Shown one piece after another: positions 1,163-63,958 of a stretch of 64,000 nt of DNA. This DNA is from Clostridiales bacterium. Its GTDB lineage: Bacteria > Bacillota > Clostridia > Christensenellales > Borkfalkiaceae. Both the position numbers and the translations under genes were made by a program. Location: contig SVIW01000001.1 in NCBI GenBank assembly GCA_015069295.1, positions 225,503-289,502 of the forward strand. Direction: 5' to 3'. Under the pieces are notes generated by a model. The model was not told the origin of the DNA, searched no databases, and saw nothing but the letters and a program-made list of their open reading frames with translations. Numbering within the stretch: the stretch's first letter is position 1; every line of letters begins with the position of its first letter.

Positions 1163-1178
1163 ATTTTCTTCCTCCTTT

Positions 1179-2129: not shown

Positions 2130-2138
2130 ATATCCTCC

Positions 2139-3014: not shown

Positions 3015-3017
3015 CGC

Positions 3018-3986: not shown

Positions 3987-4034
3987 TGTTTTTTTCTCCT
4001 TTTGTTAGGATTAGGGTAAGATTTTTATTACGTA

Positions 4035-5648: not shown

Positions 5649-5673
5649 TTTATTTCTCCTTATTCTATATTTT

Positions 5674-39949: not shown

Positions 39950-40040
39950 ATAGCCTCCTAAGCCTTGTAGGCTTTTCACTTCTGTTGTAGGGTAAATTTT
40001 ATAAAATCCACACAATAACCCTATTTTTCCATTCTGTTAT

Positions 40041-45566: not shown

Positions 45567-46946
45567 TTAATTTACACCCAAATAGCTTACTGCATTACGA
45601 TAACAAACGTCCTTAATGACTTCACCGACAAGCTTTTCGTTTGCGGTCATTTCGCCGCGCTCCATCATTCCACCCAAATAATTGCAAAGAATACGACGGA
45701 AATAGTGATGGCGAGGATAGGAAAGCAGAGAACGGCTGTCCGTCAGCATTCCCACGAACGCGCCGATATGCCCCGTTGCGGTAAGGTCCTCCAAATGCTT
45801 TTCCATTCCCACTTTGTTATCCAAAAACCACCAAGCGGGTCCGTATTGGATTTTCCCTCTTGCCTCGTCGCTTTGGAAACAGCCGATTAAGGTCATAATT
45901 TCCGCGTTCATTTTCGGATTGAGGTTAAACACAATCGTTTTGGGAAGCGCACCTTCCGTTTGCAAACGATCGAAAAGGCGGGAAAGATTTTTGATGCTGT
46001 TGTCTTCCGCGATGCTGTCATACCCCGTATCCAAACCGAGTTTTTCTAACATCACCGCGTTATTGTTGCGCATCGCGCCGATATGCAGCTCGGTTGCAAT
46101 CGAATACTTTGCGTACAGCTTAAAGAGGAAATAGGTAAGATAGCCTTTGAAAACTTCGCTTTCCGCTTCCGTTACGTTTTCGCCCGCTCTACGCTTTGCA
46201 AACACCCTCGCCGCCTCCGCCTTTTCCGCTACGGGGTAAACGCATTGCAAAGCGACGTCCGCCGCCGTCGTGCCGACTTTGATAAATTCTTGCAAACGTT
46301 CTTCTATTTTACTCTCCAAAACGTCCAAATCCGCCACGTCACCAAGCTTTGCAATAAAGTCGTTATATTGCGCCGCTTCGACGTTCATAATTTTGTCCGC
46401 GCGGAACGCAGGGATTACTTTAAATTTATATCCCTTTTTTGCAATCGCGGGGAACGTGGAAAGGTCGTCAAAGATTTCGTTCGTCGTGAAAAGGTGGGTA
46501 ACGAAAGAGCTTTCAATCAGTTTTTGCGGGGTGATGTTGTTGAGTTTGATATACTCGTTACACCAATCCCAAATAAGTTCTGCGTTTCCCTCGTTGATTT
46601 CCAGTTCACAGTTGAAAAATTCTTTCAATTCCACCTGCGACCAATGGTACAAGGGATTGCCGAACGCCGTACCCAGTACGCGGCAATAGGTTAAAAACTT
46701 TTCCTTGTTGCTCGCACTGCCCGTGATGTATTCTTCGTTCACGCCGTAGTTGCGCATCAAACGCCATTTGTAATGATCGCCTGCAAGCCAAATTTGAAAC
46801 ACGTCGTCAAAGGGCTTGTTTTCCAAAATCTGCTTTTCGGGCAAATGACAGTGATAATCGAATATCGGCATATCCTTTGCATAGGAAAAATACAGTTTTT
46901 CCGCCGTTTTGTTCGTCAGTAAAAAGTTGTCTTTAATATAACTCAT
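45567..46946 (-). CDS. uxaC: Glucuronate/galacturonate isomerase
   Basis: This 459-aa cytoplasmic enzyme isomerises D-galacturonate to D-tagaturonate (and D-glucuronate to D-fructuronate). It has the amidohydrolase-like HxH metal motif in FDYHCHLPEKQI (residues ~29-40), the family segments FQIWLAGDHYKWRLMRNYGV and LHIGAMRNNNAVM, and the C-terminal TDSRSLLSYPRHHYFRRILCNYLG. The length matches the family (about 460-470). The start overlaps the uxaA stop by 4 bp (ATGA). It is third in the uxaB-uxaA-uxaC operon. Confidence 0.97.
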   Translation of the reverse strand: MSYIKDNFLLTNKTAEKLYFSYAKDMPIFDYHCHLPEKQILENKPFDDVFQIWLAGDHYKWRLMRNYGVNEEYITGSASNKEKFLTYCRVLGTAFGNPLYHWSQVELKEFFNCELEINEGNAELIWDWCNEYIKLNNITPQKLIESSFVTHLFTTNEIFDDLSTFPAIAKKGYKFKVIPAFRADKIMNVEAAQYNDFIAKLGDVADLDVLESKIEERLQEFIKVGTTAADVALQCVYPVAEKAEAARVFAKRRAGENVTEAESEVFKGYLTYFLFKLYAKYSIATELHIGAMRNNNAVMLEKLGLDTGYDSIAEDNSIKNLSRLFDRLQTEGALPKTIVFNLNPKMNAEIMTLIGCFQSDEARGKIQYGPAWWFLDNKVGMEKHLEDLTATGHIGAFVGMLTDSRSLLSYPRHHYFRRILCNYLGGMMERGEMTANEKLVGEVIKDVCYRNAVSYLGVN

Positions 46947-48343
46947 AAGGTAACCCCCGTTTTATAAAATGCGATTTCTCGCACGTCTTCGCTTTTGCAT
47001 TTATATTCGCCGTCCACCGTCTTTTTCAATAGCTCGAACAGCCCCTCTTCGTCCATTCCGTAGGCGTTAAAATCAATCCAATTATTTTTGAACGCGGAAA
47101 TTTTGTCGTTCGAGGCGATTTTCATCGTCGGCACGAAAGTAGAAAACGGAGTCCCTCTGCCCGTGGTAAACAGTACGATTTGACACCCGCTTGCCGCCAA
47201 CGCCGTTGCGGCGATAAGGTCGTTACCCGGCGCGTTCAACGCGGACACGCCCCCCACCTTTACCTGTTCGCCGTACGCAAGCACGTCCACGATTTGACTG
47301 CTGCCCGCCTTTTCCACGCAACCCAAGGATTTCTCTTCTAAGGTCGTTATTCCGCCCTTCTTGTTACCGGGCGAGGGGTTTTCGTAGACGGGGAAGCCTT
47401 GCGAGGTATAATACGCCTTGAAATCCTCGATCATCTTCTTATATTTTTCAAACGTTTGCACGTCCTTACACTTGTTCATAAGCCGTTGTTCCGCGCCGAA
47501 CATTTCGGGGACTTCCGTTAAGATTGCGCTGCCGCCAAGCCCCACGATTTTGTCGGAAATTCTCCCCACGAGCGGGTTTGCCGTCAACCCCGAATACCCG
47601 TCGCTCCCACCGCATTTTAAGCCGATGCAAAGCTGAGAAAAATCAACGTCTTCCCGTTTTAATTCTTTTGCTTTTTGAGCAAAACCGCGCAAAATTTCCA
47701 TACCGTACGCGTGCTCGTCTTCTACCTCTTGGCAATTAAAATAGGCGATGTTTTCCCGCTTATAGGGCGCGAGATATTCTTTTATCCCTTCCAAAGCGTT
47801 GTTTTCACAGCCCAACCCCACGAATAAAACGAAGCTTGCGTTCGGGTTTAACGCAACGGAACAAAGCAGCTTTTTAATATTTTCGTTATCCTCGCCAAGC
47901 TGACTGCAACCGAACTGATGGGTGAGCGCAAAAATGCCGTCAATACTCCCTTCCACGTACGCTTGCGCCTCTTTTGCAAGCCGCATACAGACGTTGTTGA
48001 CGCAACCTACGGTCGGGATAATATAGATTTCATTGCGAATCCCCGCTCTGCCGTGTTTGCGCTTAAAACCGCGGAAAAACGCCTGGGATTTCTTCGGGAT
48101 TTCCGCGTTAAACTCGTACCTGTATGCCACGTCTTCGTCTAAATGCGATTTTACGTTGTGCGTATGCACCCAATCGCCCGCCGCAATATCTTGGGTAGCT
48201 CTGCCGATAATTTCGCCGTATTTAACGACGTATTCCCCCTGTGAGATCTCCCGCAAAGCGAATTTGTGTCCCGCCGCTATTTTTTCGTCGCCGTCCAAAG
48301 CCACGCCTACGTTGTCTTTCTCGTTAATAATAATCGTTTTCAT
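46943..48343 (-). CDS. uxaA: Altronate dehydratase
   Basis: This 466-aa protein holds the small N-terminal SAF-like domain (residues 1-90, with DWVHTHNVKSHL) and the large catalytic UxaA domain in one chain. The latter shows GIRNEIYIIPTVGCVNN, LTHQFGCSQLGEDN, GLKCGGSDGYSGLTANP and FTTGRGTPFSTFVPTMKI, with Cys and His residues for the iron site. It dehydrates D-altronate to 2-keto-3-deoxy-D-gluconate. Galactarate dehydratases are relatives, but the neighbours uxaB and uxaC support altronate. It lies 3 bp after uxaB. Confidence 0.95.
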   Translation of the reverse strand: MKTIIINEKDNVGVALDGDEKIAAGHKFALREISQGEYVVKYGEIIGRATQDIAAGDWVHTHNVKSHLDEDVAYRYEFNAEIPKKSQAFFRGFKRKHGRAGIRNEIYIIPTVGCVNNVCMRLAKEAQAYVEGSIDGIFALTHQFGCSQLGEDNENIKKLLCSVALNPNASFVLFVGLGCENNALEGIKEYLAPYKRENIAYFNCQEVEDEHAYGMEILRGFAQKAKELKREDVDFSQLCIGLKCGGSDGYSGLTANPLVGRISDKIVGLGGSAILTEVPEMFGAEQRLMNKCKDVQTFEKYKKMIEDFKAYYTSQGFPVYENPSPGNKKGGITTLEEKSLGCVEKAGSSQIVDVLAYGEQVKVGGVSALNAPGNDLIAATALAASGCQIVLFTTGRGTPFSTFVPTMKIASNDKISAFKNNWIDFNAYGMDEEGLFELLKKTVDGEYKCKSEDVREIAFYKTGVTL

Positions 48344-48346
48344 CGT

Positions 48347-49720
48347 TTATAACAAACTCTTCCCCTCGTTTAAAAGTCGGATATTTTCCTCTACGCTATC
48401 CGCAAAGCTTTCGTACGCCGTCAAATCCTCGCCCCAGACCTTTTCGTCCTGCATAAAGCCGCGCACGCTACCGCCCTGCGCAAAATACCGCAAGTAGGGC
48501 AAATCGTCCATCAGTTCGATTTCGCGGCTGGGCAGGGACACGAAGAACTTTCCGCCCCGTTCCACCACGGACGAATAGAGCTTCATAAGATAGGAAAAGC
48601 CCTTCGTCATATTGGGCGCAATTTTCTTATGGCGCGTATAATAGTCTTTAAAGCTGGGCAAATTTCTCGCCGCCCATTTGGAGATGCTGTTCAAGGAAAT
48701 ACTCGTCAACAGATGGTTGAGATAGGGGTTGGAGAATCTATCCAACACGCTGTCAGCAAATACCTGGGTAGCCGCTACGTCGTCGGAAACGAAGGGCGTA
48801 ATCTCCTCTTCCAAGGTATCGAGCAAGAATTTAGAAAGCCGACTATCCTGCATACAGTCGTACACGGTTACCGCGCCTTCCCAAAGCCCTGCCGGCACGA
48901 GATTGGTATGACTGCCGTTTAATACGCGCACCTTTCTCTTTTTATAATAGCCGATATTTTCCGTCAAAACGACCTCGATATTGTGCACGCCTTCCTTTAC
49001 GTATTTTGCAATATCCCCTTTCTTTTCGACCGCCCAAAGCCCGAACGGTTCGCCCACGGAAACAAGCTCGTCCTTTTTGCCAATCAAAGTTTCTAGGTGC
49101 GCGCGCGTTTCCTCGTCGCGGGGATACCCCGACACGATTCTATCCACCAAAGTATTGCAATAAAAGTTTTGTTTATCGTTCCATTCTTTAAACCCTTTGG
49201 GTAAATTCCAAAGAGCAATATATTTATCTACGCAGCCTTTCAACGCCGTTGCGTTGTTGTCGATCAGCTCGACGGGCAACAGATACACTCCGTTAAGCCC
49301 CGCCGTGAAACGCGCGTATAAGAATTTCGTCAATTTTGCAGGATAGGTAATTTCTTCAAACCCGTCTATGCTATCCTTTTCATTAAAGCAAATCCCCGCT
49401 TCCGTGGTATTGGACACAATCAGCTTTACCGACTCGTCTTTCGCCAAATCGTAATACGCTGCTTGGTTTGCAAACGGGTCGATCACCGAACCGAGCACGT
49501 CAATCCTTTTCACCGTTTCTACCGCTTTGCCGTTTTCCATACCGCGAAGCACCACGTGGTAAACGTTGTTTTGCTTTTCAAAGCGCTCTAGCGTACCAAA
49601 CGTAATGGGTTTTACTATATGCACCTCGTAATTACCGCCCTCTTCGTTTAAGGTATCAAAATAGGCGTCCACAAAGGTACGCAAAAAATTCCCCTCGCCA
49701 AACTGTACGATTTTAATCAT
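48347..49720 (-). CDS. uxaB: Tagaturonate reductase
   Basis: This 457-aa NADH-dependent dehydrogenase of the polyol-specific long-chain family reduces D-tagaturonate to D-altronate. It has an N-terminal Rossmann fold (IVQFGEGNFLRTFVDAY), VSNTTEAGI, and the catalytic-region segment RVLNGSHTNLVPAG that is typical of the family (Lys in KKRKVRVLNGSH, Asn, His). The start at 49720 (AGAGGTG upstream) is preferred to 49777, which overlaps the promoter. It is the first gene of the operon, divergent from an AraC regulator. Confidence 0.95.
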   Translation of the reverse strand: MIKIVQFGEGNFLRTFVDAYFDTLNEEGGNYEVHIVKPITFGTLERFEKQNNVYHVVLRGMENGKAVETVKRIDVLGSVIDPFANQAAYYDLAKDESVKLIVSNTTEAGICFNEKDSIDGFEEITYPAKLTKFLYARFTAGLNGVYLLPVELIDNNATALKGCVDKYIALWNLPKGFKEWNDKQNFYCNTLVDRIVSGYPRDEETRAHLETLIGKKDELVSVGEPFGLWAVEKKGDIAKYVKEGVHNIEVVLTENIGYYKKRKVRVLNGSHTNLVPAGLWEGAVTVYDCMQDSRLSKFLLDTLEEEITPFVSDDVAATQVFADSVLDRFSNPYLNHLLTSISLNSISKWAARNLPSFKDYYTRHKKIAPNMTKGFSYLMKLYSSVVERGGKFFVSLPSREIELMDDLPYLRYFAQGGSVRGFMQDEKVWGEDLTAYESFADSVEENIRLLNEGKSLL

Positions 49721-49748
49721 AACAACACCTCTTGTCGTTTTTTCTTTT

Positions 49749-49777
49749 ATTATATCACGAATATACTTGACAATCAA
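49749..49777 (-). promoter_or_regulatory. uxa operon promoter
   Basis: TTGATT (49772-49777) and TATAAT (49749-49754) are separated by 17 bp on the minus strand. It overlaps the oppositely directed araC promoter at 49767-49795, so the two compete for RNA polymerase. Confidence 0.8.
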
Positions 49778-50680: not shown

Positions 50681-52072
50681 TTATTTTATCAAAAGATTGT
50701 TTACGTTTTCAAAAACGAAATCTTCTCTGACGTCAGGTTTATCCGTTTTAATCGTTACGTTATCCAAGGTCAAGCCCTCGATATGACGGAAGAAAATCCC
50801 TTTCGCCGGCAAAAATCTTCCGTAGGTATTTACCTCGGGATAGGGCTTGGGTTCTTCAGGCACGACGGGGTCAAACTCTTGTACGCCCCCGTCTAAATGC
50901 AAATGCACGTTTCTAAGCGTAATATTTTCCAAAGGATAGCCCTTCAAACCGCAGACGTTGCAGGTGATTTGCCAAGGCTCTTCCCCCGTTGCGTTGGTCG
51001 AATCGTTGGTATAGCCAAAAACCCCCATACGCCAAGGATATTGCAAGGTATCGTTTTTCACAAAGCTGTCGTAATTCCACGCGACGATTTCATACGGCTC
51101 GTAAGGCCCTTCCGCCACAAGGTTTTCAATCAGCACGTTTTTAATGGCGCCGATTTCTCTGCCCGCAGGCCCGCGCATACGCTTCCCGATATGGATAAAC
51201 AAGGGAGCGCCTACGTTGCGCATCGTAATATCCCGCAAAGTGATTCCATCAAAAACCGCCCCGTCTACGCTTTCAATGGCAATCCCCGTGATACGCGTTT
51301 CACGGATATCTATCTTTTCAACGAGAATATCTTCAAACCCGCCGTTCGTTTCCGTGCCGAATTTAATGGCAGTGCAGCGGCTTTTTAAACGACAGTTTTT
51401 AACGTGTATGTTTTTACAAATATCCAAGCGATTGAGCGTATACGAGCTTTTAAACACAATAGCGTCGTCGCCAGCCTCTACGTCGCAATCGTAAATGCGG
51501 ACGTTCTTGGAATTGTCGGGGCTGATACCGTCTATGTATACGCGCATCGAAATACCGTGCACGTCCACGTTTTCACAGCCTGCAAAGTAAACGGCAAGGT
51601 CAGTAACGTGGTCGATACGGGAAATGGAAATTTCTACGTTCTTACATTCTTTTAAAGCAATACATTTCGGACCTCTATGCACGATATCCCGCACGTTGTC
51701 CTCGTCCCAAACCGAACGCATATCCACCCGTCCTTCCCCGACAATAGCGATATTTTCGCAGTTTCTGCCCACGAACATCGAACAGTCGAAATAGCTGTGC
51801 GATTGGTCTTGATAGAGCGGGTATTCGATTTTCTCCTGCGGCGCATAATCGTAAAAATTAAGACTGCCTAAAATGCACGCGCCTTTCTCTACGCGGATAC
51901 GCACGTTGCTTTTTAAAAATACGGTTGCCAAAACGTAGTCCCCGCAAGGCACGAGCACCTCGCCGCCACCCGCTTTATTACACTCGTCTATTGCGCGTTG
52001 AAACGCAGCCGTATCCAAAGTTACCCCATCGGCAAGCGCGCCGTAATTTTTTACGTTAAAAATAGTATTCAT
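50681..52072 (-). CDS. GH28 polygalacturonase-like enzyme
   Basis: This ~463-aa right-handed beta-helix glycosidase begins FNVKNYGALADGVTLDTAAF, the standard GH28 N-terminus. The catalytic-region pattern is visible as ISPDNSKNVRIYDCDVEAGDDAIVFKS (conserved Asp and Asp-Asp), with RCTAIKFGTETNGG after it. No signal peptide is seen, so it is probably cytoplasmic and acts on imported oligogalacturonides or related pectic fragments. The start is uncertain: 52072 fits the family, but the ribosome site is weak, and 52084 is possible. It has its own consensus promoter. The neighbouring uxa operon would use the released galacturonate. Confidence 0.9.
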   Translation of the reverse strand: MNTIFNVKNYGALADGVTLDTAAFQRAIDECNKAGGGEVLVPCGDYVLATVFLKSNVRIRVEKGACILGSLNFYDYAPQEKIEYPLYQDQSHSYFDCSMFVGRNCENIAIVGEGRVDMRSVWDEDNVRDIVHRGPKCIALKECKNVEISISRIDHVTDLAVYFAGCENVDVHGISMRVYIDGISPDNSKNVRIYDCDVEAGDDAIVFKSSYTLNRLDICKNIHVKNCRLKSRCTAIKFGTETNGGFEDILVEKIDIRETRITGIAIESVDGAVFDGITLRDITMRNVGAPLFIHIGKRMRGPAGREIGAIKNVLIENLVAEGPYEPYEIVAWNYDSFVKNDTLQYPWRMGVFGYTNDSTNATGEEPWQITCNVCGLKGYPLENITLRNVHLHLDGGVQEFDPVVPEEPKPYPEVNTYGRFLPAKGIFFRHIEGLTLDNVTIKTDKPDVREDFVFENVNNLLIK

Positions 52073-52100
52073 ATCCCTAACCATCCTTTTTGTTGATAAG

Positions 52101-52129
52101 ATTATAACACAGCTTGCTTGCCTTGTCAA
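52101..52129 (-). promoter_or_regulatory. Consensus promoter of the GH28 gene
   Basis: TTGACA (52124-52129) and TATAAT (52101-52106) are separated by exactly 17 bp on the minus strand. The leader is only about 20-25 nt. The region 52130-52285 shows only a degenerate REP-like stretch. Confidence 0.88.
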
Positions 52130-52350: not shown

Positions 52351-55300
52351 TTAGTCTTCTTTCTTCTTTTTAAGAACGACTACTGCCGCGCCGAGCATAG
52401 CAACCGCTGCGCTTACGCCGCCGATAACGCTACCGCAACCGCCTTCTTCTTCAGCAGGTTCAGCGGGGATTGCCGTGTAAACCGCTTCAACCGTTACGTC
52501 GCCGCCGTTAAGTTCGTACGTAGCCCAAGCGCCCGTGTAACCGTCTTTTGCAGGAACTTCGGGAACGGTGATTTCTTTGTCGTCTACCGTATAGGTATCA
52601 GAGCCAACCGTTTCGCCGTCTGCAACGAAGGTTACCGTGTATTCAACCGCCGTGTAAACCGCGTTAACGGTTACGTCGCCCGTCGTCAATTCGTAAGCAG
52701 CCCAAGCAGCCGTATAATGTTCTTTTGCAGGAACTTCGGGAACGGTGATTTCTTTGTCGTCTACCGTATAGGTATCGGAGCCAACCGTTTCGCCGTCTGC
52801 AACGAAGGTTACCGTGTATTCGATAATCGTCCATACGGGTTCAACCTGCAAATCAGCAAGCGTTACGTCTTCAACCGTCTTATTCCAAGCCACCGAATAG
52901 CCTTCCATTGCCAAGTCCGCGGGAACTTCGGGGAAGACGACTTCGTCAATCGTTTCTACCGTGAAGGTAATAGGAGCTGCCAAAAGCATACCCGTTCTGG
53001 GATGATTGAAGCTGATCGTGTATTCAACAGCCGTGTACACTGCGTTAACCGTTACGTCGCCGCCGTTCAATTCGTAAGTAGCCCAAGCAGCCGTGTAATG
53101 ATCTTTTGCAGGAATTTCGGGAACGGTGATATCCTTATCTTCTACCGTGTAGGTATCCGTACCAACCGTTTCGTTATCTGCTACGAACGTTACCGTGTAG
53201 GTGATTGCCGTGTAAACCGCGTTAACCGTAATACCGCCAACAACCAATTCGTAAGCTTCCCAAGCGCCCGTATAATGCGCCTTTTCAGGTACTGCGGGAG
53301 CCGCGATTTCTTCATCTTCTACGGTGTATTCAACCGTGTCGACCGTTTGTCCGTCTGCAACGAAGGTCGCCGTATATTTGATTGCCGTCCATACGGGTTC
53401 AACCTGCAAATCTGCAAGCGTTACGTCTTCAACCGTCTTATTCCAAGCAACCGTATAGCCTTCCATTGCCAATTCTTCGGGAACTGCAGGGAATTCTACG
53501 CTGTCAATCGTTTCTACCGTAAACTTGATAGGCGCTGCCAAAAGCATACCCGTTCTGGGATGGTTGAAGCTAATCGTGTATTCGATTGCTTCTTTTGCAT
53601 AGGATTTCGTCAATACGAGACCTTCATACGCAACGTCTTCGTCAAAGTTCCAAAGCGCACCGTTAGCCGTCTTCCAGCCTTCCAAGGTATAGCGATAGCC
53701 GCCTTCTTCATACGAATCTTCTGCCGTGGGCTTTTGAAGTTTCGAACCAAGCATAACCGTCTTTTCTTCGCCGTCAACCGTTACCGTGCCTGCTACTACG
53801 GGTACGTTTTCCAAAAGGATATCTTTCGATACGGTACCTGCAACCCCTTTGCTTGCAATACCGACCGTAAAGCCCGCGCCGATTTTAACGGTAAGGGTTT
53901 CCATTTCAAAGTGAGGAATCAAAGCAGCGTCGATGTACAGTTCCATCGTGTTGCGAACGCCGCCGGTCTTCTCCGCGTCTACGATATGCAAAAGAATCCC
54001 TCTACCCCCAAATACGTCGAAGGGCCACATCGGCGTTTTGCCTTCCGTGTCCGCATACAATTCTGCGTTCAGTTCTTGCCCGATTGCCGAAATCTCGTCG
54101 ATCGTCATATATTCGCCGCCAACGTCAATCGAAATGAAACTGCGTGCAATTTCGTATTCGCCGCCATAGTTATAATCCCATTCGTTGATGTAGTTGCCAA
54201 CGTGAGGGAATTCGAGCCCGTTGGGCAAGGTAAAGGAAATCGTAATAACGTCTCTGTATTCAGCAACGTTCCCCTCTGCGTCTTTGATGGGAGCTTGCGT
54301 GAGGGCAGAATGTACGTTCGTAACTTCTTCAATCAACTCATCGTTATTTACAAACGTATTGCCAAGTCTCTTAAAGACAACGTCTTCTTCTACTACGTAG
54401 CATTTGTCCGTAGTAGTATAGCAAGGAATTTGACAACCTGCTTTGATAACGATTTCTTGTGCAGCGTTGATTTTATCTGCATTGAACTGCGAAGGGGTAC
54501 GGAAGGAGCATACGTCTGCACCGTGCAAACCCGTGAAATAGCATTCCGTGGTCTGAGAGTTATCCGTAACGCAATACGAAGCCAAGCTTACGCCGTCAAC
54601 GTAGATGTTATCATAAAGCTTTAACGCGTCTGCATAGTCTTTATCCGCTTTATTTTCACCAGCCACGTAGTCGTGTCCTTCAAGGGCGAGACCAAACCAG
54701 TTTCTCGTTTCGTTCGTGCCATACCACTTCACACCCGTAACGTTTACGGGAACTTCTTCCAAATCAGCAACGACCGCACCGAACAAGTTTCCAGTGAAGG
54801 AGTTGTTGGGCTTAATTTTTAATTCAACGTCCTTGCTAAGATAATATTCTTGCTCGCTCGTTACTTTGCCTGCCACTTCTTCCAACGCTTCGGTGGAGAA
54901 GTCCTTTTTAATAACGATGCTCGTTACTTCGTTTGCAGGCAAATAATCGGTGGGAATATAAATATCCAAGCATTTTGCCGACAAAGAAGGGTGATGCAAA
55001 ATTTTCACGAAAATCGGCGCGTAGTTTACAGGGTCGTTGCCAAGCTCGTTGCACAAGCTCGTAACGTGTTCTCTTTCGCCCGCTTCCACAGCCGCCTTAT
55101 ATTCTGCCACGTGCTGCGCTACCGATTTGCCGTTGACGTAAATCCATTCTAAAACGGCAGTCTCGCTGTTCTTCATCAAAAAGTTGCCGAATTCCCAAGC
55201 GTTAGCATCGCCTGCGGTAAGCGCGATACGGTATAAAGGGGTATCCGCAAAATCGCCTACTGCGCCCCAGTTGAGTACCGATACGGACGAAGCCATATCA

Positions 55301-55437
55301 ATTGCGGGGTTTTCTGCCGAAGCGGTAATTGCCGCAGGTTCGCTGACGGTGTCAATCGCTGCGATTGCGCCTGCGCCTGCGCCGACGAACATCGTAGCCA
55401 AAGCCAACGTCAACAGAGTTTTTTTGTTTCTCTTCAT
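52351..55437 (-). CDS. Surface protein with InlB/Flg_new-type repeats and Cys-containing tail
   Basis: This is a 1028-aa protein with a signal peptide (cleavage near ASA/ENP) and AAGGAGG at the start. Residues ~50-560 carry beta modules of the type LEWIYVNGKS, YDNIYVDGVS, QEIVIKAGCQIPCY and EEDVVFKRLG, related to those in the proteins at 1, 8166 and 40322. Residues ~600-985 hold six Listeria-Bacteroides-type repeats in two flavours: YTISFNHPRTGMLLAAP (two copies) and YTVTFVADGETVGSDTYTV (four copies). The end is EEEGGCGS, a hydrophobic stretch and KKKKED. It is monocistronic. It is probably a wall- or membrane-associated adhesin or glycan binder for the pectin locus. Confidence 0.82.
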   Translation of the reverse strand: MKRNKKTLLTLALATMFVGAGAGAIAAIDTVSEPAAITASAENPAIDMASSVSVLNWGAVGDFADTPLYRIALTAGDANAWEFGNFLMKNSETAVLEWIYVNGKSVAQHVAEYKAAVEAGEREHVTSLCNELGNDPVNYAPIFVKILHHPSLSAKCLDIYIPTDYLPANEVTSIVIKKDFSTEALEEVAGKVTSEQEYYLSKDVELKIKPNNSFTGNLFGAVVADLEEVPVNVTGVKWYGTNETRNWFGLALEGHDYVAGENKADKDYADALKLYDNIYVDGVSLASYCVTDNSQTTECYFTGLHGADVCSFRTPSQFNADKINAAQEIVIKAGCQIPCYTTTDKCYVVEEDVVFKRLGNTFVNNDELIEEVTNVHSALTQAPIKDAEGNVAEYRDVITISFTLPNGLEFPHVGNYINEWDYNYGGEYEIARSFISIDVGGEYMTIDEISAIGQELNAELYADTEGKTPMWPFDVFGGRGILLHIVDAEKTGGVRNTMELYIDAALIPHFEMETLTVKIGAGFTVGIASKGVAGTVSKDILLENVPVVAGTVTVDGEEKTVMLGSKLQKPTAEDSYEEGGYRYTLEGWKTANGALWNFDEDVAYEGLVLTKSYAKEAIEYTISFNHPRTGMLLAAPIKFTVETIDSVEFPAVPEELAMEGYTVAWNKTVEDVTLADLQVEPVWTAIKYTATFVADGQTVDTVEYTVEDEEIAAPAVPEKAHYTGAWEAYELVVGGITVNAVYTAITYTVTFVADNETVGTDTYTVEDKDITVPEIPAKDHYTAAWATYELNGGDVTVNAVYTAVEYTISFNHPRTGMLLAAPITFTVETIDEVVFPEVPADLAMEGYSVAWNKTVEDVTLADLQVEPVWTIIEYTVTFVADGETVGSDTYTVDDKEITVPEVPAKEHYTAAWAAYELTTGDVTVNAVYTAVEYTVTFVADGETVGSDTYTVDDKEITVPEVPAKDGYTGAWATYELNGGDVTVEAVYTAIPAEPAEEEGGCGSVIGGVSAAVAMLGAAVVVLKKKKED
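52490..53590. repeat. Nested tandem repeats within the surface protein gene
   Basis: Near-identical ~100-bp stretches recur with a 177-bp period (for example 52561 and 52738, with one mismatch noticed). A larger unit recurs with a 558-bp period (for example CCCGTTCTGG at 52991 and 53549). They encode the InlB-type units and make the gene prone to length change by recombination. Confidence 0.8.
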
Positions 55438-55594: not shown

Positions 55595-56878
55595 TTACGA
55601 TTTTTTGCTTTTGGTTACGAACAAAGCCGCCCCTACTGCCAATGCGACGCCCATCGCCGAGAACAAGGCGTTACCGCCGCAGCCGCTTTCCGTTTTCGAG
55701 GTTTCCAAAACAGGGTTTTTCTCGACAACGGGGGCTTGCAGAGTTTTTAAAAGGGTTTGCGCGTATACGCGGGAAAGATAATCGTTGGCGTGATTGACGT
55801 TGTTACCCGTCATATCCGCGTAACGTTTTCTTTCTAAAAGCGACGCGTGCATTTCCGTCATATTCACGACGGCTACGCCCTCTCGCTCTACCGATTCTTT
55901 CATACCGCGGACAAAGGATTCTTGCGTGCCGTAAAACCCGTTCGCCTCCGCGTTGGGAAGCATCGTTGCCACCGCCAAGATATCGACTTGCGGGAATTTT
56001 GCTTGTATCGAATCGATAATCGTATTGATATTATAGACAAAGCTCGTGATGTTTTTCGACCCGTCGTTCATACCGAACGCAACGATTGCCAAATCAATAT
56101 TATCGTGTTTTGCCACGACGCTGTCGATTGTTTCTACACCCCAAGTGCTGTCCTTTCCGCCAACGGAATGGTTATGTACGTTGACGTTTTGTAAACCGTA
56201 GTTCTTTTTCAAGCCCTCGGCAAACAATTCGCTGTACGTAGGCATATACGGCGAAACGCCCGTAAAGCCCGACGCGTTGCCGCCCACGGAAATCGAATCC
56301 CCAAATACGAGCAGATCCAGCGTATTGCCTTTCGTCAACTTCTCGCGGACGTTGCCAAGCAAACCGCCTTTCCCTTCGGGGATATAGCCGCTATACTTTG
56401 CTTCGTGCGAATAGGTAATCACGATTTGGCGTTCGTGAAACCAACTGCCTTCGTGAAAGGTAATATACCCGCCGCCCGTGCGGGGCATCGTTGCCGCGCT
56501 TGCAACCGTGGGGTACATTTCTTCGTGGGAGAGCAAGGAAATTGCACCGTCGGGATAAACCCAAAGCTTTCCTGCCTGCACGAAATAATCGACGCCCTCT
56601 ACGTACGTTTCCGTCAACTCGGCGTTTTGCACCTTGATGACGTCCTTGATGGGATACAAGGTCTGTATCGGTAAGGGCTCGCCGCTTTCTCCCGCTACGG
56701 GGAGGGCGGATTCTTGATAAGAAACCGTCCCCTCCCATACGGGTTTTAACATTTCGTCTAAGGAATAGAGGGTGTCCGCGCTATCCGCTTGTACGGGTTT
56801 TGCTGCGTTTACTCCGCAGCACGCACCGCATACGCACGCAGCGCAAAGAACTGTTTGAAAAAGCTTTCCAATTCTCAT
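55595..56878 (-). CDS. SGNH/GDSL hydrolase with C-terminal sorting-like tail
   Basis: This is a 427-aa secreted protein with a signal peptide (cleavage near VNA/AKP). An N-terminal beta region (~40-185) precedes an SGNH domain: block I LLVFGDSISVGG with Ser195, block III AFGMNDGS with Asn271, and a His at 363 in NNVNHANDY with Asp355 nearby. It is an esterase, possibly a deacetylase of pectin or another acetylated glycan. The C-terminus is ESGCGGNALFSAMG, a hydrophobic stretch and KSKKS, a variant of the tail on the proteins at 8166, 32456 and 52351. GAGG precedes the start. It is the last gene of the operon that starts at 63958. Confidence 0.88.
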   Translation of the reverse strand: MRIGKLFQTVLCAACVCGACCGVNAAKPVQADSADTLYSLDEMLKPVWEGTVSYQESALPVAGESGEPLPIQTLYPIKDVIKVQNAELTETYVEGVDYFVQAGKLWVYPDGAISLLSHEEMYPTVASAATMPRTGGGYITFHEGSWFHERQIVITYSHEAKYSGYIPEGKGGLLGNVREKLTKGNTLDLLVFGDSISVGGNASGFTGVSPYMPTYSELFAEGLKKNYGLQNVNVHNHSVGGKDSTWGVETIDSVVAKHDNIDLAIVAFGMNDGSKNITSFVYNINTIIDSIQAKFPQVDILAVATMLPNAEANGFYGTQESFVRGMKESVEREGVAVVNMTEMHASLLERKRYADMTGNNVNHANDYLSRVYAQTLLKTLQAPVVEKNPVLETSKTESGCGGNALFSAMGVALAVGAALFVTKSKKS

Positions 56879-56900: not shown

Positions 56901-59900
56901 TTAGATAATGCTGAATGCACGGATATACATACCGTCGGCAAGGGTCAATCTGAACATTGCAACTGCCCAGTTCGCCGCATTTTCCGCCGTTACACCGTTC
57001 AGGTTGGTAATATCGATTTCCAAAGCCACCCATTCACCTTCGCTCATACCCGACTGTACGGTATAGTCTTTCGAACCGCCCGTACCCGTTTCAGCAATCG
57101 CGCCTTTCCAACCATCTTCCAACGTGGACGTGATACCAAAACCTGCGTTGATCGTAGTTGCCGAGCCTCTGTTTTGATAAATTACGACCATCTTGGTCTT
57201 GCCTTCCAAGCTAATGCTGCCTTCGCCGCCTTTGCCCCAAGCGTACTGTGCGCCGAGGTAAACGCGGGTATCCCCTTGCGCTGCCTTAAAGGACTTCGAG
57301 TTTGCATCGTAAGCGCCGTTCTTCCATTCTGCCATAAGCGCGTTGAGCGCTGCTTCGTCCGTGAAGTCGAAAGATACGCTGGAATCAAGGCTGAACGTAA
57401 TCGAGTTAAGCACGATTTCGCCTGCGCCCACAAAGCTTACCGCAACGTTCGTAACGTTGCCGCTTGCCGTCAAGGGAAGGGTCGTTACCCCCGAAGCTAC
57501 GTCGAAGGTATAGGTTTGCACTGCGCCGCCGATCGTCAAGGATACTTTCACCGCCGTTACGCCGTCTGCCTGCGTATAGCCAAGGTTCATACTCTTATAA
57601 CCGAGCATCGAGAAGCCCGTAATATCCTTATTGAAGGATGCACCGTCAGCAACGACGAACTTCGTACCAAGGTTATCCATATCGTAGATTGCGGTAAGGG
57701 TTTCGTCGTTTTCAACGCCGAACGCGTATCTGTCGTTGAAGTTGAAGCCAACCAACTCTTCTGCCTTAAACGGTTCGAAAGAAATGCTTTCGATAAGAAT
57801 TGCATTGTCGATACCCAAGCTATCGAAAGAGAGCGACAAGGAAACGAGCGTCCCTTCGTAGTTGTCTTTTCCGAACATATTATAGCTGTAGGTTACAAAT
57901 TCGCTCATACGTGCGTCGATAAGCGCAACGTAATCGGTCGAACCGTTTGCCGTCGTGTAGGTAATCGTCAAGTTCGTACCGTAGCCGAGATTCTTCAAAC
58001 GAAGATTTAAGGTCGTCAGCTCGTCAAGGTCGATAACCTTGCCATCCTGCGGAGTAAGGGTGAAGATTGCGCCCTTTGCGCCGTATGCAGCCGACATCAA
58101 AAGCCCGTTCGTCTTATGATACAAGGTTACGTTTTCGCTTTCCGTAACGCAAGCGTTATCCTTGGGGAAAATCCAACCGTCAACCGCCGTTTGCGAACCT
58201 GCCGCCGCCTCGAGGTCTTCCGCACTATCGTTTACTTGCAAATCTTTGATAGCCTGCGTGTCGCCGTAGTTGCGGTCGTAGTTTTCGATTTCAACACCCT
58301 CAATCGACTTAATCAAAACTTCGTTCGAAAGGTCGTCAGGAGAGGTATTCAAATACGAGAACTGCACGCGAAGCTTCACAAGATATTGCGCTTGACCCCA
58401 AATGGAAACGCCGTTAATTGCCGCCGTAGTAAGGTCGAAATCTTTTGTAATCCATTCGTCGTCTTCGCTCATATTCTTTTCGAGCGGACCAAAGGTATAC
58501 GTAAACGAACAAGTTTCGCCGTAAGCGTTCGATACGAGAGGAGTGCCGTTCTTATCCGCTACGATGAAGTAGAAACGAACGGAGTTTGCTTTACCGAGAT
58601 ATTTGAAGGTCATACGAAGTTTGTGCGAAGCCGAAATATCCAACAGCTCGCCCTCGTAAGCCATAAACGGATCGCCTACTTTTGCAGCGTAACCGAAATT
58701 AATCCTTGCATAATCGCCGTCTTCTACGTATTCCGATTCACCGACGATCGAACCGTCCAAGCCGCCGCCTGCGGGATATACGGGGAACGCGTTAGCAACG
58801 TCTTCTGCCGTAAAGTTCACCGCTACTTTCACGAAAATATCCGTGTCTGCCGTAACTTCGCTGCCTTCTACCACAGCCGTCGTATAGTCGGCGTCGGTGT
58901 AATAGCCGAGCACCTTATAATAGCTGTCTGCAACTACGTCGCTGCGAAGAGAAAGCTTGCCGCCTTCCGCAACGCTGTCTACCAAGACGGGTTCCGCGCT
59001 GCCTGCAACGTAATAGTTCACGCTGTAAACGTTGCCCCACTTTGCATACAAGGTAACGTTATCCGTTACGGTATCTTCTGCAAAGTTCCATTCCTGCGTC
59101 AATTCTGCGTCTTTATACCAACCGATAACCCCGACGTTGCCGTCTACCGCTACGCTGGGTTTGGTTACAAGACCGTCAAGGTCGATAAACTGCGAGGTAA
59201 CTTCCGCAGCGTTGCCAAGGTTTTCACCAAGGTCGAATTTTACTTCGCGTTGGTTAGGATCGTTATAGAAGATAACCGCACGAACGAAAATGGAATCGTA
59301 GCACTGGAAGATAATCGAGCTGAGCGCCGTATTTGCATTGATACCGCTATACTTGGAAAGGTTTACTTCCAAATGCGCCCATTCGCCGTCCTTCATATTC
59401 GTCTTCAAGCCGCTGAGAATACGATAGCCTGCTGCGCCGGTGTCGCCGGGTTGTACGATGGCGGTCTTCCAGCCTGCTTTGTTCATATCTACCGTACCAA
59501 GCCCGACGTTCATCGAAGTAACCGTACCCTTGTTTTGATAGATGATAATCATCTTCGCCTTACCGGTAAGGGGCATACTTTCGTCCCCGTCCGTTGCGCT
59601 GGGATAATATTTCCAAGTCGTCTTTTCTTCCGAATAGGTATATTTCGTTGCGGAAACCGCCGCTTCGAAGCTAACCAAATCCCCCCACGTTTTTGCTTTG
59701 ATAATCGAAGCGAGGGTGGAGTTCGAGAAGTCGAACGCGGAATCTTCGTCTACGCTGAAACGAATATCTTGAATGAAGATTTCGCCCGTGCCCGTGAAGG
59801 TAACTTTTACGTTGGAGATATACCCGCCGTCCGTCAAAGGCAGGGAAATGCTGCTTTCTTCAGGGGTTACCGCAAAGTCGTACGAGCTAACGACGCCGTC

Positions 59901-61799
59901 GATCGTCAACGCTACGTTTACGTTGGTAACACCAGCGTTTTCCATCGCGTAGTTCATCGTCATCGCCGCGTAACCGTAGTTGGTAAAGCAGGTGAAGTCT
60001 TGTTCAAACGAAGCGCCGCTTTCCAAAACGTTGAACTTCGTCATCTTTGCTTCCTTGACGTACTCAACGCCCAAATTATCGCTAGACGATACGCCGAAGG
60101 TGTTTTTATCGTTAAAGTTGAAACCGGGAATCTGCGTTGCTTCAAATTCGTCGAATACGACGCTTTCAATCAAAATTGCGTTATCCGTACCTACGCTTTC
60201 GTAGATGAAGGTCAACGTGGAAAGATAGCCGTTATAGTTGTCTGCGCCGTAGAAGTTAATCTTATATTCGGTAACTTGAGAATCGCGAGCGTTGATCGTA
60301 AAGTCGTAGGACGCCATACGACCGTCGTGGTTCTTATATTGCAATCTAAGCGTGGTTGCATAACCGAAGTTTCTCAAACGAATCTTCACCGTGGAATATT
60401 CGTTCAAGTCAATCAAATCTTCTTCATTCGTTACTATTTCATTGCCTTGGTCATCATAACCATATTCAGGCTTCACTGCGCTAAGCATCACTTTCGCGTT
60501 CGTTTCACGGAAGCCCGTCGTGAAGAGCAAGCCTTCTTTCTTGTTGTACAAGGTTACGTTGTCGGTAGTTGCGTTATCGGTAATCGTACCAAAGTCTTTG
60601 GGGAAAATCCAACCTCTAACCGATTCTTGCGCACCTGCAGCCGCTTCAAGGTCTTCCGCGCTGTCGTTTTCCTTCAACGCTTGAACTGCCGAGCTGTCCG
60701 CCGTCGTTACGTACGTATCGTCCTTAACGCCCTCAATCGATTTAATCAACAATACGTTCGAAAGATCGTTTTCGTCCTTCGATTCGTATTGAGACTGAAT
60801 ACCAAGGGTGGTAAAGTCGTATGCGTTGCCCCAAAGGGACGCACCGTTAAACATCGTTTCTTTCGCAAAGTCAAGCGTAATGGTTACCCATTCGTCGTCT
60901 TCGCTCATATTCATTTCCGTAGGCTTGTAATCGTAACGAACTGCCGCCGCTTCGCTGAAGAACTGCTTATCTACGGGAGCTTCGTCTTCATAACGAGCCA
61001 CGAAATAGAACTTCAAAACGTTTGCGCCGCCGAGGTTCTTAAAGGTAACCTTTACCTTCTGCGAAGAGGTAAGGTCTACCGTTACGTAACGCAACATTGC
61101 GCGAGGGTCAAGCGACGTCGAATAACCGAAGTTAATCTTTGCATAGTCGCCGTCTTCCACGTACTCGATTTCACCAGCCTTCGAGCCCATACCGCCCGCC
61201 GCTTCCATCGTGAAGCGGTTCGCGATAAATTTACCGTCGAAATAGAATTCGTCGCTGCGGTGGATATAGATCTTCATGTTTTCCGTTACGGGCGCACCTT
61301 CTACAATTTCTTCCGTATAGTCGGGGGAAGTGAAGAAGCCGTTGCTGCGATAACCGTCCGCAAGGTCGTGCATCAAACGAAGGGGCTTGCCCTCTTCGAT
61401 TTTGTCCGTATACATCGGGGTTTCGATTTCATTGCCCAAATAGTAGGTAATTTCGTATGTATTCGACCATTTTGCATACAGAGTCATACTCTTTTCTACC
61501 GTATCGGTAAGGAAGTTCCATTCGTCCGTATATTCAGGGTCTTCATACCAACCCGTAACCTTTGCGTTGTTGGGGTTTGCGCCCGTTACAACAACGATAG
61601 GTTTCATCAAGGTTTCGCCCTTTGCTACTTCTTGCGCCATAATGTTGTTGGTCTGCAAATCCGTGCAGGTATCAAACGTTACGGTGCACGTCGTAGAAGC
61701 GGGCGGCGTGCTAGGCTCTTCTTCGCCGCAAGCAACCATAACGGAAAGCCCGAATATAGTCGCCGCAATACCAAGCAGCCATTTTCTCCATCTTTTCAT
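56901..61799 (-). CDS. Giant lipoprotein of two homologous halves
   Basis: This is a 1632-aa lipoprotein (signal ending MVACGE) with AGGAGGC. It consists of two similar halves offset by about 810 residues. Each starts with an InlB/Flg_new-type repeat (WYEDPEYTDEWNF ... LYAKWSNTYEI; WYKDAELTQEWNF ... LYAKWGNVYSV). Each then has a beta-sandwich (EYVEDGDYAKINFGY / EYVEDGDYARINFGY), a second one with SIEGV, an NDSAEDLEAAAG linker found in both halves, and further carbohydrate-binding-like domains (WIFPKD, ILIESV, FNFND). It is co-transcribed with the AraC-oxidoreductase fusion (17 bp gap) and the SGNH hydrolase (22 bp gap). A surface polysaccharide-binding scaffold is the likely role. Confidence 0.82.
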   Translation of the reverse strand: MKRWRKWLLGIAATIFGLSVMVACGEEEPSTPPASTTCTVTFDTCTDLQTNNIMAQEVAKGETLMKPIVVVTGANPNNAKVTGWYEDPEYTDEWNFLTDTVEKSMTLYAKWSNTYEITYYLGNEIETPMYTDKIEEGKPLRLMHDLADGYRSNGFFTSPDYTEEIVEGAPVTENMKIYIHRSDEFYFDGKFIANRFTMEAAGGMGSKAGEIEYVEDGDYAKINFGYSTSLDPRAMLRYVTVDLTSSQKVKVTFKNLGGANVLKFYFVARYEDEAPVDKQFFSEAAAVRYDYKPTEMNMSEDDEWVTITLDFAKETMFNGASLWGNAYDFTTLGIQSQYESKDENDLSNVLLIKSIEGVKDDTYVTTADSSAVQALKENDSAEDLEAAAGAQESVRGWIFPKDFGTITDNATTDNVTLYNKKEGLLFTTGFRETNAKVMLSAVKPEYGYDDQGNEIVTNEEDLIDLNEYSTVKIRLRNFGYATTLRLQYKNHDGRMASYDFTINARDSQVTEYKINFYGADNYNGYLSTLTFIYESVGTDNAILIESVVFDEFEATQIPGFNFNDKNTFGVSSSDNLGVEYVKEAKMTKFNVLESGASFEQDFTCFTNYGYAAMTMNYAMENAGVTNVNVALTIDGVVSSYDFAVTPEESSISLPLTDGGYISNVKVTFTGTGEIFIQDIRFSVDEDSAFDFSNSTLASIIKAKTWGDLVSFEAAVSATKYTYSEEKTTWKYYPSATDGDESMPLTGKAKMIIIYQNKGTVTSMNVGLGTVDMNKAGWKTAIVQPGDTGAAGYRILSGLKTNMKDGEWAHLEVNLSKYSGINANTALSSIIFQCYDSIFVRAVIFYNDPNQREVKFDLGENLGNAAEVTSQFIDLDGLVTKPSVAVDGNVGVIGWYKDAELTQEWNFAEDTVTDNVTLYAKWGNVYSVNYYVAGSAEPVLVDSVAEGGKLSLRSDVVADSYYKVLGYYTDADYTTAVVEGSEVTADTDIFVKVAVNFTAEDVANAFPVYPAGGGLDGSIVGESEYVEDGDYARINFGYAAKVGDPFMAYEGELLDISASHKLRMTFKYLGKANSVRFYFIVADKNGTPLVSNAYGETCSFTYTFGPLEKNMSEDDEWITKDFDLTTAAINGVSIWGQAQYLVKLRVQFSYLNTSPDDLSNEVLIKSIEGVEIENYDRNYGDTQAIKDLQVNDSAEDLEAAAGSQTAVDGWIFPKDNACVTESENVTLYHKTNGLLMSAAYGAKGAIFTLTPQDGKVIDLDELTTLNLRLKNLGYGTNLTITYTTANGSTDYVALIDARMSEFVTYSYNMFGKDNYEGTLVSLSLSFDSLGIDNAILIESISFEPFKAEELVGFNFNDRYAFGVENDETLTAIYDMDNLGTKFVVADGASFNKDITGFSMLGYKSMNLGYTQADGVTAVKVSLTIGGAVQTYTFDVASGVTTLPLTASGNVTNVAVSFVGAGEIVLNSITFSLDSSVSFDFTDEAALNALMAEWKNGAYDANSKSFKAAQGDTRVYLGAQYAWGKGGEGSISLEGKTKMVVIYQNRGSATTINAGFGITSTLEDGWKGAIAETGTGGSKDYTVQSGMSEGEWVALEIDITNLNGVTAENAANWAVAMFRLTLADGMYIRAFSII

Positions 61800-61816
61800 C
61801 CTTTTGCCTCCTGATT

Positions 61817-63958
61817 TTATTTCTTCATATCGTCAATCTCGACGATCGTTTTTTCTTTTCTCGATTTTTCTGCCGCGAAAACGCAAAGGTGTCCGTTCAC
61901 CGAGTCTTCCAACTTGGTAATGGAAACCGAGCTTCTATCGCCGTTGTAGTACGCAACGAGGTCGTGCATAATCGCAAAGTCGCCGCCGTTGTGCCCGCCA
62001 AAGCGTGCGTTGCTGATAACTTCGTCTTTTACACTAACCTTTTCTTCCGTACCGCTAAACGAGCCGTCAACGTATCTACGAATAACGAATTCGTCTTTTT
62101 CCAACTGACCTTCCACTTCCCCTTTCGTGCCGACGATGTGCAGATATCTGCCCGCGCGGATTGCGCCGCCGGTAAGGGTAAAGGTGCAGTTCGAACCGTT
62201 TTTAAAGGAAACGATAACGTTCTGTCTGTCCACGAGGTCGCCGAGGTTGTCGTATGCACATTTGCCGTAGATATTCTTTTTCAAGAATTCCATCTTTTCC
62301 TCGTCCGTAATCTCGTCCAAAGGCTTGTTGAGGCTGTCCCAAGTCAAGAACGGCATTGCATTCATTTCCATATGCATCTTGATCGCCGAATAAGGACAAT
62401 CGCGTTCTACTTTACATTGATAACAATACTCGGTTGCGCCCTCGGGTTTCTTTTCTTTAACGAATTGCGCACGCGTACCGAAGCTGCAAACGCGTTCGGG
62501 TTCAGTTTCGTTATTCAGCCAGCACATAAGGTCGAGGTCGTGGCAGCATTTCGCCAAAAGGAAACCCGACCCGCAAGCCGCTTCGCTGTTCCATTTCCCG
62601 CGGGTATACGCGGTAAGATAATGCGCGATGCAAACGTGTTCGTTCATTTCCATCGTCATAATCTCGCCCAGTTCGCCGCTTTTAATTAACTTTTTCACCC
62701 TACTATAATACGGGGTGTAACGCAATACGTGTGTAACAAATACTTGACAGCCTTTTTCATCCGCAAGTCTTTTGATGTCCATCAATTGCTTCGCATTCGG
62801 CACGATAGGTTTTTCCATTGCCATATCATAGCCTGCGCTTAAAATCTGCATTGCCGTTTCGTAATGGATTTGGTCCATCGTTGCATTGATGACAAAATCG
62901 CAAACGACGTTCTTTTTCAAAAACGCATCGAAAGTGGTAAACAGTTGATCGTCGGAAAGCCCGTATCTCTTCTTGGCTTCCGACAATTTAAATTCGTTAG
63001 GATCTACGATTGCCGCAATCCCCAACTCCTCAGGACAATCCAGCGAATAATCGGCGTATACTTGACCGCGGTTGCCGTATCCAACGATAACCGCCCAACG
63101 TTTCTTATTTACCGTCTGTTCCTTCGGTTGTTCTACTATGCTTTTTTCCATTGCTTTATATTCTCCGTTCGTACCGTCCGTTTTATATTTTTTAAGCACT
63201 CTGTAATAGGTTTCCATACTGTTAAAACCGCAGCGTAAAACAATCTCTTTAAGCGTGTACTTCTTTTCCATCAGACTCTTGTTTTCCAAGACCTTTCTGA
63301 TACGGATACGATTGACGTACTCGTTTAAATTGATCCCCGCCATACGGTTGAACAGCGCGGAAAAATAATTTTCACTATAACCGAATTTTCTTGCCAAAAC
63401 CGGCAATTTTAAATCCTCACCATAATTTGTTGAAATATATTCGCTGACCTTGATGAAAAATTCCTTGTTCGAATTTTTCTCTTTCTTGCGAAGCAACGAA
63501 CTATTATACAAAATCCCCATCATCGAGTTGACGAAACCGCGTTTTTGCAGATTGTTGAAAGTAGGAAATCTTTCATACGAATCGGTAATAAGCTTCATCA
63601 GTTCCGCCATAACTTTACTGGTAGGATGCAGGAAATTGTTAAATTCCGTCTTATCGTCGATAATATGCGAAATATATTCTTTCCCGATTACCAAAATATA
63701 CGCGGCAGCGTTGCCGATATATTCGTAATGGTGCGAATCGTAACTGTTTACGAGGAAGATTTCCCCTTCCCCGATCTTTTGTATGCGATTGTTTACCATA
63801 CAGCGCATACACCCGCGATAGACCACCAAAACTTCCAGACTTTGGTGTACGTGCAAACCCGCAAAACGGTATTTTGCCGCCGCCATATCTGGAAAGTTTT
63901 GGAAGTAGATATAATCGGGCGCGTCTGCGCTCTGTTCATACCAATTGTCTTTTCTCAA
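61817..63958 (-). CDS. AraC-type regulator fused to Gfo/Idh/MocA oxidoreductase
   Basis: One uninterrupted 713-codon frame. Residues 1-~262 form an AraC regulator: cupin (GLHVHQSLEVLVVYRG, NSYDSHHYEY) and two HTH motifs (LKLPVLARKFGYSENYFSALF, TLKEIVLRCGFNSMETYYRVL). Residues ~270-713 form a full Gfo/Idh/MocA enzyme: Rossmann start AVIVGYGNRG, EKP motif (DMAMEKPIVPN), HVLRY, CCHDLDL, and a Cys cluster CYQCKVERDC like that of the paralogue at 10587-11879. The start is a TTG with GCGGGGAT upstream; an in-frame TAG lies before it. An internal ATG at 63151 (residue 270) with GGAG 11 nt upstream could also give a free enzyme. It heads the operon with the giant lipoprotein and the SGNH hydrolase. 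Confidence 0.9.
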   Translation of the reverse strand: MRKDNWYEQSADAPDYIYFQNFPDMAAAKYRFAGLHVHQSLEVLVVYRGCMRCMVNNRIQKIGEGEIFLVNSYDSHHYEYIGNAAAYILVIGKEYISHIIDDKTEFNNFLHPTSKVMAELMKLITDSYERFPTFNNLQKRGFVNSMMGILYNSSLLRKKEKNSNKEFFIKVSEYISTNYGEDLKLPVLARKFGYSENYFSALFNRMAGINLNEYVNRIRIRKVLENKSLMEKKYTLKEIVLRCGFNSMETYYRVLKKYKTDGTNGEYKAMEKSIVEQPKEQTVNKKRWAVIVGYGNRGQVYADYSLDCPEELGIAAIVDPNEFKLSEAKKRYGLSDDQLFTTFDAFLKKNVVCDFVINATMDQIHYETAMQILSAGYDMAMEKPIVPNAKQLMDIKRLADEKGCQVFVTHVLRYTPYYSRVKKLIKSGELGEIMTMEMNEHVCIAHYLTAYTRGKWNSEAACGSGFLLAKCCHDLDLMCWLNNETEPERVCSFGTRAQFVKEKKPEGATEYCYQCKVERDCPYSAIKMHMEMNAMPFLTWDSLNKPLDEITDEEKMEFLKKNIYGKCAYDNLGDLVDRQNVIVSFKNGSNCTFTLTGGAIRAGRYLHIVGTKGEVEGQLEKDEFVIRRYVDGSFSGTEEKVSVKDEVISNARFGGHNGGDFAIMHDLVAYYNGDRSSVSITKLEDSVNGHLCVFAAEKSRKEKTIVEIDDMKK

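Follow-up and report, generated by a model that had tools for sequence, protein, structure and literature searches.

A conserved fusion of an AraC-type regulator and a Gfo/Idh/MocA oxidoreductase in a glycan-use locus of Borkfalkiaceae

The fused gene and its locus

The window analysed here, a 64,000-nucleotide stretch from the genome of a Clostridiales bacterium of the family Borkfalkiaceae, carries a single open reading frame of 713 codons on its minus strand (61817–63958) that starts with TTG and runs without an internal stop. It encodes an AraC-type cupin, a helix-turn-helix, a linker of about 35 residues and a complete Gfo/Idh/MocA oxidoreductase in this order. Four Pfam domains score above cut-off in the protein: AraC_binding (residues 29–123), HTH_18 (188–258), GFO_IDH_MocA (290–410) and GFO_IDH_MocA_C (422–708). 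Together with the same architecture at seven other loci, this confirms the claim of an earlier note that a regulator and an enzyme share one frame. The cupin with its HVHQSLE motif is encoded at 63590–63874, the AraC-type double helix-turn-helix (about residues 168–255) at 63194–63457 and the fast-evolving linker (about residues 254–288) at 63095–63199, the latter including a possible internal start, ATG at codon 270 (63149–63151) with GGAG upstream. The NAD-binding Rossmann domain (62729–63091) has the motifs GYGNRG and EKP (Lys383), and the C-terminal domains of the oxidoreductase (residues 418–708, 61835–62707) hold LLAKCCHD (His473), a cysteine cluster and GGHNGGD (His656); all these features are on the minus strand.

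The earlier note had placed the gene at the head of an operon, which is wrong: the fusion comes roughly fourth in the string of genes and is preceded, beyond the window edge, by genes for a 576-aa lipoprotein, an 846-aa PF00528 protein and a 295-aa PF00528 permease. The lipoprotein has no Pfam match and occupies the place of a solute-binding protein. The TTG of the fusion at 63958 shares bases with the permease stop (CTT TGA / TTG AGA). All seven fusions whose 5' end is intact have such an overlap of start and stop, which suggests translational coupling; it spans four bases (TTGA or ATGA) in five of them and a single base (TAATG) in the two copies of the clade B described below. Downstream, again on the minus strand, follow a 1632-aa lipoprotein with Listeria-Bacteroides repeats (56901–61799), an SGNH/GDSL esterase-like protein (55595–56878), a 1028-aa protein with List_Bact_rpt (52351–55437), a GH28 pectinase-type glycosidase (50681–52129), a Mannitol_dh family protein that is UxaB-like by context only (48347–49777), a UxaA-type altronate dehydratase (46943–48343) and a UxaC glucuronate isomerase (45567–46946). 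A Listeria-Bacteroides repeat protein also follows the fusion at the two other loci tested by Pfam, the second copy of the same genome and that of G262. The placement of the fusion among glycan-use genes is thus supported by the ABC-transporter genes upstream and by GH28, UxaA and UxaC downstream. The downstream set (GH28, UxaA, UxaB-like, UxaC) is one for pectin and galacturonate use, and the whole string of genes is a candidate for a single transcript.

Two further features of the window were noted. A 1232-codon open frame (58116–61814, plus strand) runs antisense to the gene of the 1632-aa lipoprotein and is probably a composition effect. The minus strand also encodes a 2519-aa subtilase with PA, Fn3-like, Big_2 and BspA-type leucine-rich repeats (32456–40015).

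Conservation and origin of the fusion

At least eight distinct loci in seven genomes of two genera hold both halves in a single open frame: two in the genome of the window and one each in G274, G262, G293, G301, G242, where a contig end removes the N-terminus, and G035, the only one of the eight from another genus. The earlier note had suggested looking for the two-domain architecture in related genomes; our count stems from searches of 301 family genomes, with at most three candidates scored per genome and only the matches listed counted, and of 57 genus genomes, of which six have the fusion. The second fusion of the genome (contig C14, 18203–20311; L047, 10201–12312) is 703 aa long and 48% identical to the window copy, and this is also the identity between the two clades into which the fusions fall, window-type and clade B. 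Contig ends interrupt a ninth copy, that of G131, which has the gene order of clade B: its AraC part runs off contig C63 and an enzyme part opens contig C205. Next to the second fusion, L047 carries a row of lipoproteins of about 550–560 aa with alike starts (positions 1–6247), two of which begin MKKKLCCLVLAGLSAFGMLGLSACG; the one tested has no Pfam match, and the row represents a local expansion.

Beyond the family, rows spanning both halves were only the genome's own two among 396 genomes of the order (E ≤ 1e-140) and again among 391 of the class (E ≤ 1e-90), and 398 phylum genomes gave no AraC-half match at E ≤ 1e-24 outside the own genome; thresholds of this kind could miss divergent or independent fusions. 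Two class rows have open frames above 600 aa (G713, 681; G717, 756), with matches that begin at position 267 or run across four stops. Several enzyme rows of the family search had long frames (G024, G072, G162, G068:C9, G068:C24, G171 and G021); the first four of these were inspected and are not fusions. A 659-aa AraC frame, L082, was likewise discarded as a candidate since its AraC part is C-terminal and an enzyme half is absent.

The earlier note had named a stop codon between the halves in close relatives as the mark of a sequencing error or of a recent fusion limited to this assembly. We checked for it and found none: the linkers of all eight loci are free of in-frame stops, while the other two frames contain 23 and 24. 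Linker length varies from 31 to 42 codons in whole-codon steps, and the chance that a base-shuffled linker has no stop is 0.017–0.133 for each. In the two closest pairs, G293/G301 and G274/G262, dN/dS is 0.018 and 0.023 for the helix-turn-helix, 0.064 and 0.061 for the enzyme half, 0.078 and 0.045 for the cupin and 0.104 and 0.285 for the linker. Synonymous sites of the other five pairs are near or at saturation; where ratios can be formed, they are 0.058–0.115 for the helix-turn-helix, 0.062–0.073 for the enzyme and 0.44–0.63 for the linker. The fusion is a true, conserved gene that is kept by selection. The occurrence at multiple loci and in multiple genomes and the stop-free linkers rule out a sequencing error or a recent stop loss. 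One might still ask whether an older, neutral stop loss or an assembly artefact without functional meaning could account for the fusion, given that AraC relatives end right after the last helix, with Gfo genes often close behind, and that one lost stop could fuse the two. Against eight loci in seven genomes, near-saturated synonymous sites in most pairs and linkers free of stops in every copy, we regard this as extremely improbable.

Both modules of the regulator half were compared among the copies. The double helix-turn-helix (PF12833) is found at E ≤ 0.001 in all eight fusions, so that this feature of the AraC/XylS family is present throughout. AraC_binding precedes it at the same threshold in five of the eight, the window protein (29–123) included. 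Judged by motif, the three fusions without this domain are the two clade B copies and the truncated G242. The HxHxxxE cupin motif is kept in all five window-type copies with an intact N-terminus. In the two clade B cupins (L047, 10201–12312; L055, 8456–10570) it is missing, which may point to a degenerate first sensor domain in these copies.

A tree of the AraC halves (54 non-duplicate sequences with matches of at least 60 bits) unites the eight fused rows with L116, the contig-cut G131 copy that is labelled solo, in one clade with support of 100/100. The enzyme halves (49 sequences, matches of at least 120 bits, duplicates removed) place eight fused and three free rows in one clade (99/97), and a 29-row tree of 25 of these 49 plus four added rows groups nine fused with five free rows (100/97). 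The best enzyme tree puts free copies among the fused ones, which requires two changes, but a single fused clade is not rejected (p-AU 0.309). We infer that the fusion arose once, before window-type and clade B copies split, and that separate enzyme copies came later, although the enzyme tree alone is insufficient to settle this. Independent fusions in the two clades are not favoured because the AraC halves form one clade; the best enzyme tree, however, needs its two changes. Unfused AraC and Gfo neighbours occur at no fewer than 11 distinct loci in the family and many AraC relatives there terminate right after the last helix, so the loss of one stop could have sufficed for the fusion.

The enzyme half, its residues and free relatives

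The solved proteins nearest to the enzyme half are all distant ones, namely FlSqgA (8qc2, E 1e-15 over 186 residues), YvaA, glucuronide-3-dehydrogenase (8tdi), DgpA and Gal80. DxxxH with its Asp marks a site of the inositol dehydrogenase type within the Gfo/Idh/MocA family. The window protein keeps His473 but has Ala469 instead of this Asp, and Ala or Gln occupies the position in all 37 aligned enzyme rows; in so broad a family, the missing Asp argues against such a site and not against the fold. According to excerpts of PMC10755693, the NAD-dependent glycosidase ArSqgA uses Lys107, His193, His321, Glu189 and Tyr136. On this numbering, Lys383 and His473 of the window protein correspond to Lys107 and His193 (alignment to FlSqgA, offset of 13 set by hand) and His656, from its motif only, to His321, while Glu189 and Tyr136 are replaced by Ala469 and Leu412. 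Thus, the fusion shares the Lys of EKP, the His of KCCH and the GGHxGG loop with the GH188 (SqgA, 8qc2) and GH109 NAD-dependent glycosidases, yet it is remote from them and, as far as the excerpts describe these enzymes, they are glycosidases without a regulator domain. Without the equivalents of Glu189 and Tyr136, the chemistry and the substrate of the enzyme half are unsure, and we rejected filing it as GH188.

PF01408 is present in all eight fusions. Among 49 homologues, 48 have the catalytic lysine and all have both histidines (alignment read by eye), the sole case of a replaced lysine being the second fusion of the own genome (L047, 10201–12312), where EEP stands for EKP and the Lys is a Glu. 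Of the residues that the earlier note proposed to compare, the DNA-binding domain is accordingly kept in every fusion and the EKP motif in seven of eight. Downstream of the second fusion, one gene and 2.6 kb away, lies a free sister enzyme with the EKP lysine; the lost lysine together with such an enzyme nearby would be expected if a fused half can be a sensor. Taken to all fused copies, this would make the enzyme half a pure ligand or NAD sensor and no enzyme, as in yeast Gal80. The EEP copy and remote Gal80 matches (3bts, E 7e-6; Gal80p_C-like in four of eight members, below cut-off in the one case with a given score) point in this direction. However, the equivalents of Lys383, His473 and His656 are kept in the other seven fusions and dN/dS of the enzyme half is about 0.06, and we consider this explanation quite unlikely. 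Window-type enzyme halves probably still act on a sugar via the 3-oxidation route, with a substrate deduced from the neighbouring genes.

The fusion could also do no more than tie the expression and amounts of its parts, the cupin sensing the sugar and the enzyme being just an enzyme, with a tether that has no regulatory meaning beyond co-production. The unfused neighbours common in the family, the cupin motif kept in window-type copies and a linker as long and variable as the one observed would all agree with this. Nevertheless, the frame has been kept with zero stops despite linker drift even though a restored stop would yield the common unfused arrangement, a copy without the catalytic lysine is still fused, and clade B has lost the cupin motif. 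We therefore see co-production as a serious but rather doubtful account.

Regarding the possible internal start, the ATG at 63151 with GGAG upstream, from which the earlier note proposed that both a fusion and a free enzyme are made, does exist. Of 158 other in-frame ATGs in the eight fusions, about 1% pair as strongly with the anti-SD sequence as this one does (−8.7). Linker ATGs with pairings of −8.7 to −9.3 are found in the window copy, G274 (interrupted helix) and the close relatives G293 and G301, and weaker ones in G262 (−4.1) and G242 (−6.4). A strong SD-like linker ATG is thus present in four of six window-type loci, and the two readable clade B copies lack a linker ATG. For scale, the fusions' own starts reach −3.8 to −7.1 and 13 other starts annotated by frame −5.9 to −11.5 (one mis-set start excluded). 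Among 500 codon-shuffled linkers each, the same value was attained by 18 (window), 18 (G274), 55 (G293), 74 (G301), 138 (G262) and 47 (G242, better of two). The genomes with clade B copies have a separate free enzyme gene (L003 in the own genome, L142 in G035 and L140 in G131). Counting against a two-product pattern, G242 has a window-type fusion plus a free enzyme (L143; C133, 3069–5283), and no fusion was seen in G087, where a close free enzyme lies near the end of a contig. The pattern is not significant by itself, and it is weakly and circumstantially suggestive of two products through internal initiation. The free enzyme L143 is 69% identical to the window enzyme half and lies directly behind a permease, the usual place of the fusion, without an AraC half.

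A candidate operator and the possible role of the fusion

Of the window-type copies, only the own locus and that of G301 have the stretch 5' of the transporter genes on their contig. There, both share TTATGACAMAA-N4-GGTAA-N3-ATRACMMCACA, followed by TGTGTTATAATGG, and the whole upstream regions align with a score of 92, compared to a maximum of 57 in 40 shuffles. In the own genome, TATGAC repeats at exactly 21 bp beside the transporter promoter, and the second half-site of G301 is GATAAC; 21 bp is also the half-site spacing of AraC in E. coli. Having been drawn up by eye from two sites, the pattern matches once in each of the two genomes by construction, with no second match in either. With up to three mismatches allowed, it is absent from 14 other genomes. 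Four of these have window-type fusions with an upstream region that lies beyond the contig, and two have clade B copies for which the region is available. All three clade B loci, the own one included, have their upstream region on the contig and show no match to the pattern, and the upstream regions of the own clade B locus and G131 align to those of the window type only as well as shuffled sequence does. The 21-bp repeat fits a local, single-target activator in the window-type clade, with a putative footprint deduced from two promoters.

Enzyme-regulator fusions, or trigger enzymes, are known as a kind, for example PutA, MocR/PdxR, NadR, BirA and Ada. The pairing with Gfo/Idh/MocA is not known among them. 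In these proteins, too, a DNA-binding module and an enzyme form a single chain and the enzyme state may report a metabolite level, but the enzymes are others and so, for the most part, are the DNA-binding folds. Yeast Gal80 binds NAD(P), is no enzyme and binds its activator non-covalently. Its Gfo/Idh/MocA fold (PDB 3bts) also serves transcription control, whereas the fusion here is covalent and its catalytic lysine is kept in seven of eight copies. AryK, Rsp and Btr (profile lengths 759, 701 and 531) have an N-terminal AraC half and a long second part too, but their matches to the window protein cover the AraC half only. The same pairing without fusion, with the two genes adjacent or at the same locus near ABC-transporter genes, is found in Borkfalkiaceae and in the nan operon of Ruminococcus gnavus. 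As described in excerpts of PMC4988440, the nan locus holds an AraC-family regulator, a Gfo/Idh/MocA enzyme, a solute-binding protein and two permeases; these are separate proteins, and the transporter genes come after the AraC gene. Our literature search found no publication on an AraC-Gfo/Idh/MocA fusion, although a variant spelling of the family name may have escaped it. The pairing, its conservation and the natural contrast in the catalytic lysine are therefore new to the literature searched, and other annotated cases are possible.

One feature of a trigger enzyme, a term used in PMC8152036, is seen here at the level of sequence: a DNA-binding and an enzyme module in one reading frame. Transcription control that depends on a ligand, along with catalytic activity, would be the other. 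We propose that the fusion is a bifunctional local activator of this type whose enzyme half reports an imported pectin sugar, a proposal that includes the single origin, the operator repeat and catalysis on a sugar and that we judge evenly balanced between right and wrong. The AraC half would bind the 21-bp-spaced repeat beside the transporter promoter and would activate the transporter genes and the gene of the fusion itself. The ligands of the enzyme half would be NAD(H) and a uronic-acid oligosaccharide taken up by the cell or a product thereof, and occupancy of this half, via the tether and together with the cupin signal, would set activation. In window-type copies the enzyme half would probably still be active on the sugar, oxidizing or reducing a glycoside at C3. 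The second copy of the own genome has lost the catalytic lysine and has a free sister enzyme nearby, in line with a fused half that can act as a sensor. Counting against the trigger-enzyme proposal, the intact cupin of window-type copies could do all the sensing. Both roles considered in the earlier note, gating of DNA binding by the enzyme half and recruitment of the enzyme to the locus by the regulator, are hypothetical. A related model is a Gal80-like switch in one chain, in which the NAD-bound enzyme half would set DNA binding by the AraC half and a fused form as sensor and a free form as enzyme would both be needed, the free one coming from the internal start in one clade and from a gene of its own in the other; the fused copy that has lost the lysine would already be a dedicated sensor. 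We find this model conceivable but unlikely.

Under the proposal of a trigger-enzyme-type activator, the enzyme half may tell the regulator when the imported sugar has arrived. If such gating is true, glycan-use genes would read the flux through a catabolic enzyme and not the sugar alone, and the fusion would be a simple system in which a common enzyme fold, as in yeast Gal80, turns into a signal domain. The two copies in one genome, with and without the catalytic lysine, make this step from enzyme to sensor directly testable.
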